From Sandarakinorhabdus sp. (GTDB lineage: Bacteria; Pseudomonadota; Alphaproteobacteria; Sphingomonadales; Sphingomonadaceae): a stretch of 35,141 bases of DNA. Both the position numbers and the translations under genes were made by a program. The stretch lies in the NCBI GenBank assembly GCA_020693225.1, contig JAIMJL010000024.1, positions 1-35,141 on the forward strand. The letters run 5' to 3'. Shown one piece after another: positions 26,536-31,297 of this stretch. Numbering within the stretch: the stretch's first letter is position 1; each line of letters opens with the position of its first letter. The notes below the pieces were generated by a model. The model made no database searches and was not told the DNA's origin. It worked only from the letters and a program-made list of their open reading frames with translations.

Positions 26536-26958
26536 TCAGTTGCTGGCGGCGGGTGGCTCAGCGGCGGGCTCTGCGGCGGGCGCCGGTTTCATCGGCTGAA
26601 ACCGTCCCAGGCTGCATCGTGCGCCGGTCGCACGGCCGCCGTTAACCACGGTGATGCTGTCCATGCTGCACAGTTGGCCGGTGCGGCTGTTGTGCTTGAA
26701 GGCGCGGCTGAACCCGAGTCCGGAGCAGGCGAAAGGCAGCTCGTTGCGAAACATCCGGTTGCTTCCCATCACGAAATTGATCGTGCGATCGTCCACCACA
26801 TGCGTGCTGCGGATCTGCCGCAGGGTGATGCAGGTCACCGGCTCGCCATCCGGCACCCAGACCTGCTGCGAACGCGGCGTGCTGTTGCCGCCATCGGCGC
26901 AGCTGGCAAGCAGCAATGCGACAGCCAGGCCGGCACCCAACAGAAAAGTCTTGCGCAT
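26536..26958 (-). CDS. Small lipoprotein, unknown function, Ala/Pro/Glu-rich C-terminus
   Basis: MRKTFLLGAGLAVALLLASCADGG lipobox; conserved-looking cysteines; alternative start at 26973. Confidence 0.8.
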   Translation of the reverse strand: MRKTFLLGAGLAVALLLASCADGGNSTPRSQQVWVPDGEPVTCITLRQIRSTHVVDDRTINFVMGSNRMFRNELPFACSGLGFSRAFKHNSRTGQLCSMDSITVVNGGRATGARCSLGRFQPMKPAPAAEPAAEPPAASN

Positions 26959-27001
26959 AAAATCCTCATCCATCGCTTTCGCCCGGAAGCTGCATCCGGT
27001 T

Positions 27002-27868
27002 TCATTCTGCTGCAAGCAAATCCTGCGGTCTCCCAAGCAGCGCGGGTGCCAGCGCGGGCAGCTCTGCCATCAACTGCGAAAAACAGGCCGATATGGTCGC
27101 CGCCAGCGTCGCCAGCCCGGCGTGCGGTGCCAGCGTTCCGGGGTGCATGTACAGCGCGCGATCAAACTCCAGCTGGATGGCGTGCCGGCCGATTGCCGGG
27201 CAGCCATGGCGCTCGGTGGTATGGCCGCCGGCATAGGGCATATTGCGCACCACCCTTAGCCCGGCATCGGCGAACAACCGCTCCAGCGTCGCCACAAGCG
27301 GAGCCGCCGCACTGCTGCCATGGCGATCGCCGATCACCAGATCCGGCGGCTTCGGGCCATCGGGCGTGGGCATCGAATGGCAATCCAGCAGGATCGCATA
27401 GCCGTACGCGCGGTGCGCCGCTGCAAGCCTGTCAGCAATCGCCGCGTGCCAGGGCCGATGCAGGGCATCCAGCCGCGCCGGGATGTCTGTCGCCGGGATG
27501 CGATCGGGATAGATCGCCTGATCGGCGGCCGCCATGCGCGGGATCAGGCCATAGCCTCGCCGCACCCGCTCGCTGATCCGTGCCGCCATGGCAGGACGCT
27601 CGCTGAACATCGCCGGATCAAACTCGTCTTCGGCGCGATTGAGGTCGAGATAGGCCCGGCTATGCGTTGCCGCGAGCAAGGGAAGTCCTTTGGCGGCGCT
27701 TGGCGCAAGCAATGCATCCACATGGCAATCCTCGATCCGCCGCAGCGCCGCAGCGGGAAGCCGGGTCTGGCGCATGAAGGCCGGCGGCAGATGGGTGCCA
27801 CTGTGCGGGGAAGTCAGCAGGATCGGCGTGCTGCCGGGGTTGGGCCCGGACCAGACGAACGGGCTCAT
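27002..27868 (-). CDS. N-formylglutamate amidohydrolase (FGase)-like protein
   Basis: Start at MSPFVWSGPNPGSTPILLTSPHSG; LLDCHSMPTP, LVIGDRHGSS, NMPYAGGHTTERHG, QLEFDRALYM motifs. Confidence 0.92.
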   Translation of the reverse strand: MSPFVWSGPNPGSTPILLTSPHSGTHLPPAFMRQTRLPAAALRRIEDCHVDALLAPSAAKGLPLLAATHSRAYLDLNRAEDEFDPAMFSERPAMAARISERVRRGYGLIPRMAAADQAIYPDRIPATDIPARLDALHRPWHAAIADRLAAAHRAYGYAILLDCHSMPTPDGPKPPDLVIGDRHGSSAAAPLVATLERLFADAGLRVVRNMPYAGGHTTERHGCPAIGRHAIQLEFDRALYMHPGTLAPHAGLATLAATISACFSQLMAELPALAPALLGRPQDLLAAE

Positions 27869-29067
27869 CCGAACAATCCGGGGTTCACCAGATCGGGGAT
27901 GTGGCCCTTGAACTGAAAAAAGCCCCGCGCCGCATGCGGCCAGGCGCGACTGTCCCACGGGCGGCGGATTTCCACCAGTGCGATGCCATGCGCTGCAAGC
28001 GCGTTGCGGGTAGCGGCGATGCGGTCTGCCACCGGGCCGGTTGCAGCATAGGGCGTGAGAATCTGGGTCAGCCCGGCGTCGGTGGCCCAGGCGGCCAAGC
28101 CGTCTTCCATCGCTGCTTCGGGCAAGCGCACACACGGCGCATCGAAGTGCTGCTCTGCCCGCTGCACCGCGTCTGCCAGCGCGGCATTGGCATGATCCGC
28201 CTTCGGGCCCGCCGGATCGCCGCCGATGGCGTCAACGGCGGCAATGGCGCGCACTGGCACGGGCCAGGAGCTGGTTTCGGGCGACAGGTCTTCGGTGTGC
28301 AGCCAAAGGCCAGAAGGAGCGCTCGGGTTTGCTGGCGGCAACGCCCGCAGCGGCACCGGCGAGACAACAGGCTCTGGCGGCACAGGCTCGGCAAACTCCG
28401 CCAGCGGGTGGCGCACCGCAAAGCGCCCGCCGGAAACGCTGCGAATCCGCTCGGCGCTTGCCAGATAGGTTTTCCCCACCGTTTGCAGGCCGGCCACCCA
28501 GCGCCAGCTCAAGCTGTTGGAGGCCGGGCAGGCATCCAGCAGATGGCGATAAAAGAAGGCCGCGCCCAGTTGCCACGGCAGCTTCAGCGTGAATATCCAG
28601 ATGCTGGCAAAGTTCATCCGGGCGTGGTTGTGCAGATAGCCGGTGGATTTCAGCTCCTCGACCCAGAAATCGAAGCAATCGATGTCGGTGTTGGCAGAAA
28701 GCGCCTGCGCGTGCCCGGTGGCGAGGCCGCGATCATTGGCCAGCCGGCTTTCCAGCCGCTCCACGTCGGCCAGATAGCGGCGCCAGAGGCCGGGTCGCAG
28801 CTCCAGATGCCCGCGCCAGTAGCTGCGCCAGCACACTTCCTGAATGTATTTTTCCGCCGCATCCATCCCGTGCGCGCGAAACGCCGCCTGCGCCACTTCC
28901 TCCTCGCTGATCAGGCGACGGCGGATTGCGGGAGACAGGGCAGACACGTTGGTTCGTGGCCCCGGCCCGGTATCGCGGTTGCGGGTGGCGGCGTAGGCGC
29001 GGCCGGCACTGGGCAGGAATTGCGCCAAGCGGGCAAGCGCATCGGCGCGGGTGTTGGCAAAGGGCAT
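27865..29067 (-). CDS. Photolyase/cryptochrome-like FAD-binding protein with the FAD domain at the N-terminus (apparent circular permutation)
   Basis: Start at MPFANTRADALARLAQFLPSAG; GPGPRTNVSALSPAIRRRLISEEEV, YIQEVCWRSYW, GYLHNHARMNFASIWIF, DACPASNSLSWRWVAGLQTVGKTYLASAERI; C-terminal alpha/beta part GLWLHTEDLSPE...RIAATRNALAAHGIALVEI. Confidence 0.88.
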   Translation of the reverse strand: MPFANTRADALARLAQFLPSAGRAYAATRNRDTGPGPRTNVSALSPAIRRRLISEEEVAQAAFRAHGMDAAEKYIQEVCWRSYWRGHLELRPGLWRRYLADVERLESRLANDRGLATGHAQALSANTDIDCFDFWVEELKSTGYLHNHARMNFASIWIFTLKLPWQLGAAFFYRHLLDACPASNSLSWRWVAGLQTVGKTYLASAERIRSVSGGRFAVRHPLAEFAEPVPPEPVVSPVPLRALPPANPSAPSGLWLHTEDLSPETSSWPVPVRAIAAVDAIGGDPAGPKADHANAALADAVQRAEQHFDAPCVRLPEAAMEDGLAAWATDAGLTQILTPYAATGPVADRIAATRNALAAHGIALVEIRRPWDSRAWPHAARGFFQFKGHIPDLVNPGLFG

Positions 29068-29159: not shown

Positions 29160-30356
29160 TCAGGCGGTAATGGCGCGGATGGGCCGCCGCCGGTGAACTA
29201 CCCCGACGAGGCCGAAGCCCTGGATCATCATCGCCCATGTCGCCGGCTCCGGAACGGCGTTGAAGGCGTTCTGGGACAAGGTGAAGGCAGCGACCTGGTA
29301 GCCGACGTCGAGGCCCACGTCATTGTCGAAGCGCCAGTGGATTCCGCCCCACAGGCGCGATTCCTTGGCATCGATAACGGCATCGGCCCAATCATCCCAG
29401 CAGCGGCTGTTGCCGGCCCAGGTCAGACAGAAACTGCCCCCCGATCCGAAGGCGTCGGTGAGAATCCCTTGTGCCGCCCCGGAGACGCCGGCATGCGCCG
29501 AAACATAGCTGGGGTGTGGTGGCGTGTTGATAAACGGAGTCCAGTCGGCAACGGCGTCGGTATTCGGATTGCCATCGGTGTCGGCCGCGCGGATCGCCGT
29601 GACGGGTCGCCAATAGTCCTCGTGATATTTGCTGTCCCAAACGGCAATGGTAACGTCGGCGATGGCGACGGTAAGCTTTGCCAGCGTTGCGGCATTGGTC
29701 AGCGTATCGTGCCCGGCACTTTCGGCCGCATCGATGGCAGCACGCACCCAGGGGCCGGTGCCGGCAGCACCTGCCCAGAAGATGACAGCGTTCGACTGAT
29801 CCGCATCGCGCAGCAAGCTTCCCACACTGCCGATGTCCCGCACTTCCTTGAAGGCGGCTGTGTAGGCGTCGCTGGTGATCGCCGGTGGTGGCGCGGGTCG
29901 CAAAGCATCTGGCGACACCATCAGCCACGGATCAACCGCCGCCCAATGCGGCACTGCAGGCGGCGCAAAGCCCGGCGGCGTCGGTGCCCAACGGCCGGGC
30001 AAACCAGACGGGACATAGGCAACAGACGCGCCAGAGCCATCCCCGGTGCGATTGGCAATCACCGCGGCTGCATAGGCCGCCCCGGTCGCGATGCCGTCGG
30101 TCTTGGACTGTCCGTCTGCCACCAGTGCGAGACTGGCAGCGAGTGCGGCGTCGAGATCGGCGGCGCGCGCCGGGAAAGCGTGCAGCAGCACGGCGTGGGC
30201 GGCTGTTGCAGTTGCCGCACGGCTATCCCCGCCAGGTGATACGACGCCGTTCAGAAAGGCGTAGTTTGGTTGGCCCAAGGTGGCGTTGACAGCATCGTGC
30301 ATGGCAACGCTGGCCATCGCCCATGGTCTGCTGGTGGTGGTTGTGCGGATCGACAT
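29160..30356 (-). CDS. Vanadium-dependent haloperoxidase/PAP2-like protein with PEP-CTERM sorting motif; N-terminus possibly truncated
   Basis: KYHEDYWRPVTAIR, HPSYVSAHAGVSGAAQGIL, SRLWGGIHWRFDNDVG catalytic motifs; C-terminal VPEPATWAMMIQGFGLVGVVHRRRP; the open frame extends upstream to 30722 but the residues are not convincing. Confidence 0.85.
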   Translation of the reverse strand: MSIRTTTTSRPWAMASVAMHDAVNATLGQPNYAFLNGVVSPGGDSRAATATAAHAVLLHAFPARAADLDAALAASLALVADGQSKTDGIATGAAYAAAVIANRTGDGSGASVAYVPSGLPGRWAPTPPGFAPPAVPHWAAVDPWLMVSPDALRPAPPPAITSDAYTAAFKEVRDIGSVGSLLRDADQSNAVIFWAGAAGTGPWVRAAIDAAESAGHDTLTNAATLAKLTVAIADVTIAVWDSKYHEDYWRPVTAIRAADTDGNPNTDAVADWTPFINTPPHPSYVSAHAGVSGAAQGILTDAFGSGGSFCLTWAGNSRCWDDWADAVIDAKESRLWGGIHWRFDNDVGLDVGYQVAAFTLSQNAFNAVPEPATWAMMIQGFGLVGVVHRRRPIRAITA

Positions 30357-30493
30357 GGAGGTTGCTCCCTCACGCAATGGCAGGCCCCCAATGGCTGGGC
30401 CTTGCGTGCGCGAGAGGAGCGCGAAAAGGCTGTGATTGAACACTCGCGCTGCTGATTTTTTGCTGATGGACAGATGATTTTCTCGGCTTTGGC

Positions 30494-31297
30494 CTACAGG
30501 CGATAGTCTGGCTGGGTTCCACTTGCCTTCCAATAGCTGTCCAGTCCCAGGCGGCGGGTCAGCGCGGGAAAGCCGGGATGGCGGCGCAGCGGGTCTGCCC
30601 AGGCGGAAAACAGCAGCCCGGTGTAGCGGCGGCTGAACGGGCTCGGCAGCGGCGTGCCGTCGCCGCCGTAGTAGCGCTGCTCGAGCAACGAGAACGCTGC
30701 GTCCGCTTGGCCCAGCGCACACAGCAGGGCCGCGACCGACGGCGGGCCGAAGCTGGCTTGTGCTGCAAGGAGTTCCGCAGCTGCCGCCGTCATTGCCTCG
30801 CTATTTTGCGACTGCAGCGCCAATATGATGCGGTCCAGCACCGAATAGGGTGGTGCAGGCTGGCTTGCGGCGATCGTCGGTCGCGATCCTTGCTGCTGAA
30901 CAAGCGCGCGGGCCGCCTCGAACTGCCCGGTTGCCACCAGAAACTTGTAGCGATGCTGCCAGAAACCGCGATGGCGTGGCCAAAGGCGATGCGCCTCGTC
31001 ATACAGCCTGTCGGCCTCCGCCAGATCGCCCAGGCTCCACAGGGCCCAGGCCAGCTTGAACCGGCTCTTGGCATCATAGGGATCGAGCAAGCTGGCCTGA
31101 CGAAAATGCCCGGCAGCTTCCCGCAAACGCCCGCTATCCCCGAACAATTGCCCGATAGCCTCCTCCAACGGCGCAAAGGGCGGCTGGCCACCTGCCAGCA
31201 AAAGCAGCGCACGATCCTTCTGGATGAGGTTGCCACAATTCGGCACCACCCCTGCCAACGCAAATTGCGCGTCGCGATTGTCGACATCCAACTGCAA
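30494..31297 (-). CDS. TPR-repeat protein (resembles the C-terminal half of TPR-containing regulators)
   Basis: 267 aa; FRQASLLDPYDAKSRFKLAWALWSLGDLAEADRLYDEAHRLWP repeats; C-term FSAWADPLRRHPGFPALTRRLGLDSYWKASGTQPDY. Confidence 0.75.
   Translation of the reverse strand: MQLDVDNRDAQFALAGVVPNCGNLIQKDRALLLLAGGQPPFAPLEEAIGQLFGDSGRLREAAGHFRQASLLDPYDAKSRFKLAWALWSLGDLAEADRLYDEAHRLWPRHRGFWQHRYKFLVATGQFEAARALVQQQGSRPTIAASQPAPPYSVLDRIILALQSQNSEAMTAAAAELLAAQASFGPPSVAALLCALGQADAAFSLLEQRYYGGDGTPLPSPFSRRYTGLLFSAWADPLRRHPGFPALTRRLGLDSYWKASGTQPDYRL

Follow-up and report, generated by a model that had tools for sequence, protein, structure and literature searches.

A FAD-domain-first gene of Sandarakinorhabdus sp. 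very probably encodes an ordinary photolyase of the NewPHL/SPL class

Introduction

A minus-strand gene in the window (the whole stretch of DNA analysed, 35,141 nucleotides from Sandarakinorhabdus sp.) had been described, in a sequence-only reading, as coding for a photolyase-like protein with apparently circularly permuted domains, the FAD domain preceding an alpha/beta domain. The locus thus raises the questions of whether the domain order is reversed with respect to canonical photolyases, what the C-terminal domain is, and whether such a protein is new. Nothing on point was found in the literature under the wording of circularly permuted photolyases; the literature on NewPHLs does match. 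NewPHLs, or SPLs, are short photolyase-like proteins with an inverted domain topology that repair CPDs in single-stranded DNA (PMC13274461). The members named in that article (2026) are from Dinoroseobacter shibae, Methylobacterium mesophilicum, Erythrobacter litoralis and Rhodospirillum centenum, and it cites Emmerich (2020, NAR 48:12845) and Xu (2021, MBE 38:4505) as sources for the class. Phr7 of Prochlorococcus likewise consists of an N-terminal FAD domain and a C-terminal Z-domain, termed 'an atypical, short photolyase domain' (PMC9426592).

Results

Reading frame and start of the gene

The ORF was translated from the window and comprises 400 codons followed by TGA (Table 1). Every motif quoted in the sequence-only reading was recovered in the order given there: NVSALSPAIRRRLISEEEV at residue 40, YIQEVCWRSYW at 74, LHNHARMNFAS at 145, PASNSLSWRWVAG at 181, GLWLHTEDLSP at 253, RAIAAVDAI at 274 and LTQILTPYAATG at 335. 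The ATG at 29067 is the likely start, since the homologues aligned there begin MPFPTTRADAL; several homologues have just 2-25 open codons upstream of the match. The ORF as listed extends to an upstream ATG at 29238, and the 57 codons gained in this way are too short for an antenna domain. No antenna domain was found in frame upstream, up to 29238, in keeping with the order that had been proposed.

Table 1. Features of the photolyase locus (window positions; residues numbered from the ATG at 29067)
Feature	Position	Strand	Basis
Photolyase gene, very probably of the NewPHL/SPL class, 400 aa; TGA at 27865-27867	27865..29067	-	ORF and homologue alignment; PF03441 E=1.8e-16
All-helical FAD/catalytic domain, residues 1-211	28435..29067	-	AlphaFold2 helices; Foldseek to photolyases; invariant columns
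FAD-domain residues: CPD/flavin site E77, W80, N147, M151, D178, N184, W190; Trp pair W188/W165			
C180, at a flavin-site position where Asp is usual (E. coli D374)	28528..28530	-	Column count, 36 members
Pro-rich variable linker, residues 212-248	28324..28434	-	No regular secondary structure in AlphaFold2; gapped in alignment
C-terminal alpha/beta antenna-like 'Z-domain', residues 249-400	27868..28323	-	AlphaFold2; Foldseek; profile bridge
N-formylglutamate amidohydrolase gene, downstream	27002..27868	-	PF05013 E=4.1e-67

The N-terminal FAD domain

The FAD domain of a photolyase was identified at the N-terminus, where it had been placed on the strength of the motifs. With Pfam, PF03441 (FAD_binding_7) matched residues 75-201 (E=1.8e-16, profile positions 2-126 of 203), and with phmmer against the PDB residues 8-193 aligned with class I photolyases (E=1.6e-12); by sequence similarity, the match is far above chance. 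The full protein was modelled with AlphaFold2 from an alignment of 8 sequences, and the model was confident (pLDDT 84.5, pTM 0.84). The N-terminal half was predicted as a helical domain of the FAD_binding_7 type, its helices running from H7-20 to H205-211, and the C-terminal half as an alpha/beta domain.

In the family alignment (36 members, the window protein included), E77, W80, N147, R150, M151, W165, D178, N184, W188 and W190 were invariant (36/36); the columns thus kept comprise the flavin N5-proximal Asn (N184) and the CPD-site residues E77, W80, M151 and W190 of NewPHLs/SPLs. The FAD-switch Asn is conserved in NewPHL (PMC12083526), and the NewPHL of D. shibae has a Trp dyad (PMC8948257). 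In the window protein W188 and W165 are present and W95 occupies the column of the third Trp in one alignment; a dyad instead of a triad is an uncertain reading here. No Cys cluster for an Fe-S centre follows WRWVAG in this protein.

Cysteine at position 180

Position 180 is Asp in 31/36 members and Cys in the other five, namely the window protein and four further family members; the Cys is common only to close relatives of the window protein. The equivalent Asp of Synechococcus PCC 6301, D382, is listed as FAD-binding (PMC9426592), and Cys at this position in the window subclade could alter the flavin chemistry. That C180 changes the flavin redox chemistry and sets the NewPHLs of the Sandarakinorhabdus subclade apart as a subtype with a function of its own (another route of photoreduction or a sensor role, for instance) is considered decidedly unlikely. 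A still lower probability is given to the reading in which the protein has the NewPHL architecture and, owing to the change from Asp to Cys, is a cryptochrome-like blue-light sensor or an altered flavoprotein devoid of repair. Apart from the count at position 180, this reading could draw on two further proteins of the same genome that could cover repair, one a canonical photolyase (C103) and the other of the PhrB type (C71); it is opposed by the retention of all other CPD/flavin-site residues checked, including E77, W80, M151, N184 and W190, by Pfam, with which no sensor output domain was seen in the window protein, and by the NewPHLs characterised elsewhere, which are repair enzymes (PMC13274461).

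The C-terminal alpha/beta domain

When the whole model was searched with Foldseek, photolyases were matched via the FAD half only. Since the search depends on chain order, it had re-found just this domain, and the C-terminal domain was therefore modelled alone (pLDDT 87). AlphaFold2 predicted five strands (E252-257, E274-278, E312-315, E335-339 and E363-367) with helices between them, in the strand order of the photolyase antenna domain. Against the PDB, the C-terminal domain alone gave no Foldseek match below E=1e-3, and the best E-value (4e-3) was to a USP domain. Among the 50 matches listed, the highest query-normalised TM-scores were those of photolyases and cryptochromes (0.49-0.58), and no USP or other Rossmannoid domain exceeded 0.48; the matches include the antenna domains of PhrB, a class II CPD photolyase and CRY.

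The HMM search with Pfam bore out the assignment of the N-terminal half (PF03441) and left the C-terminal half unassigned, PF00875 (DNA_photolyase) being unmatched in all 36 members. BLH_phosphatase was rejected as a candidate (E=0.04 in the window protein, best 0.011 in three members, below the cut-off). The profile of the C-terminal domain matched the canonical antenna profile directly and colinearly, and the match was weak (probability 11.6%, P=0.0026); its score of 24.0 compares with a maximum of 18.1 in 60 shuffles and 14.2 for the reversed profile. A bridge was provided by FAD-first proteins encoded on plasmids of Deinococcus. With their C-terminal profile, colinear matches were obtained both to the canonical antenna (P=1.6e-9) and to the C-terminal domain of the family (P=1e-4), and in a pairwise BLAST between a Deinococcus protein and a family member the alignment spanned both domains. 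Sub-threshold matches to PF00875 were obtained at the C-terminus in two of the three Deinococcus proteins scanned (L074 and L100, E about 1e-3); a fourth locus, which is split and comes from Deinococcus sp. QL22, gave such a match in its second ORF (E=2e-4).

The failure of PF00875 in all members, the USP domain as best Foldseek match and the weakness of the direct profile match would suit a C-terminal domain unrelated to the antenna, such as a USP-like or nucleotidyltransferase-like Rossmannoid, and hence a domain gain with no swap of order. This is unlikely in view of the TM-score ranking among the listed matches, the shuffled and reversed controls, the colinear Deinococcus bridge, the traces of PF00875 in the Deinococcus relatives and the description of the Z-domain as a short photolyase domain (PMC9426592). 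Because of the fold scores, the shuffle test and the bridge, the domain is probably a diverged antenna-type domain. The reversal of domain order relative to canonical photolyases is supported. The permutation proposed with it stands as far as the FAD-first order goes; the rearrangement is a domain-order inversion in which the last third of PF03441 was lost or diverged, rather than a clean circular permutation.

The family and its phylogeny

Full-length relatives of similar size were found in about 30 related genomes, nearly all from the same bacterial class as the window organism. Further members were found in a species collection (Methylobacterium platani and MAGs labelled Ectothiorhodospiraceae, Opitutaceae and Pseudobdellovibrionaceae) and in plasmid records (Ruegeria, Novosphingobium and Asticcacaulis); in the phage collection FAD-domain matches were weak only. 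The members are mostly alphaproteobacterial, are 35-68% identical to the window protein and are named 'FAD-binding domain-containing protein' in RefSeq. PF03441 is present in 36/36, and so are the domain order and a similar length. A chance fusion between a truncated canonical photolyase and a frame downstream of it, to which the end of the FAD profile match at position 126 of 203 might point, has a vanishingly small probability: order and length are kept at such identities, and the artefact was rejected on the conservation of the whole reading frame across the 36 members.

In a tree of the FAD domain, all inverted-order proteins were separated from the canonical-order ones (support 0.996-0.998). 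The family of the window protein formed one group (support 0.706), with members from Methylobacterium (M. platani), Ruegeria and Novosphingobium, in a tree that lacks the characterised A8LJA9 (D. shibae) and M7YZC8 (M. mesophilicum). The tree was midpoint-rooted and so is silent on which order came first; its topology would fit a single change of domain order.

Other FAD-first genes were noted in passing. A CxxC...C cluster of the kind described for Phr4/Phr6 proteins with an Fe-S centre follows the FAD motif in L072 and L074 (Deinococcus) and in L055 (G076). In Deinococcus sp. QL22 (L099, 1336-2627) a FAD-first photolyase is split into a FAD ORF and an overlapping antenna-like ORF. A gene of G076 (L078, minus strand) is apparently split likewise, as are picocyanobacterial phr4/phr5; its second ORF (about 1073-1600) is missed by Pfam and looks antenna-like by eye only. 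On a plasmid of Chondrinema litorale (L073), a FAD-first photolyase-like gene of 362 aa (1501-2589) is directly followed, from 2605 onward, by a gene for a 'cryptochrome/photolyase family protein'.

Gene neighbourhood and other photolyases of the genome

The two genes in Table 1 are likely cotranscribed, because the ATG of the amidohydrolase overlaps the stop of the photolyase by 4 bases (ATGA). An FGase gene lies directly downstream in L062 and L006 as well, and not in L066. The flanking minus-strand ORFs are one at 29160-30722, upstream, which has a PEP-CTERM motif and matches PAP2 weakly and below threshold, and one at 26536-27036 matching DUF6491 (PF20101, E=2.7e-6). The search of the assembly (98% complete) gave no third PF03441 match, and hence no sign of a separate protein of the DASH type.

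Discussion

The window protein is very probably an ordinary member of the NewPHL (= SPL/Phr7) class, and would thus carry out light-dependent repair of CPDs in single-stranded DNA. The assignment is based on the architecture and on M. platani, congener of a Methylobacterium from which a member is known. The novelty that the sequence-only reading implied is unsupported, because the class is already known: the reversed order is real and the protein is new, but the class was described in 2020.

The N-terminal helical domain would bind FAD, photoreduced via the Trp pair W188-W165. Under blue or near-UV light, the reduced FADH- would give an electron to a CPD flipped into the pocket, which would then be split. 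The diverged and relocated antenna-type domain may close the FAD site, probably without a light-harvesting pigment; Emmerich is said to have found, in 2020, that the C-terminal domain seals this site. By analogy with the characterised members, the preferred substrate would be a CPD in single-stranded DNA.

The RefSeq name of the relatives accordingly stands for a photolyase with reversed domains. The Deinococcus bridge suggests that the Z-domain arose by reduction and relocation of an antenna domain and is not a new domain. This bears on the published idea that short photolyases are near the ancestor of the family, since the two-domain plan would already exist in them. If the Z-domain is a moved antenna, a single change of order would lie between the inverted members as a whole and the canonical ones.

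Comparison with known systems

The FAD/CPD site is homologous to that of class I CPD photolyases (E. coli 1dnp; Synechococcus 1owl/1tez). In contrast to these, with their N-terminal PF00875 and full PF03441, the window protein has the opposite order, no PF00875 match and an unrecognisable last third of the FAD domain, and only the fold and the bridging profiles allow its antenna-type domain to be recognised. The FAD domain comes first and the photolyase domain second also in Phr4/Phr5/Phr6, the inverted photolyases of marine picocyanobacteria (PMC9426592), and in the similar Deinococcus proteins L072, L074 and L100; in the FAD-domain tree, the Deinococcus type shares the inverted-order group with the window protein. 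Unlike the latter, proteins of this kind have a cysteine cluster (L072, L074 and L055 among ours), some are split into two ORFs, and the C-terminal domain of L074 and L100 is still visible to Pfam. The closest counterpart is NewPHL/SPL/Phr7, with members known from Methylobacterium and Erythrobacter. As in the window protein, an N-terminal FAD domain is followed by a short, photolyase-like alpha/beta Z-domain, there is neither an N-terminal antenna nor an Fe-S cysteine cluster, and the flavin Asn is conserved; the window subclade differs in having C180 in place of the flavin-site Asp.
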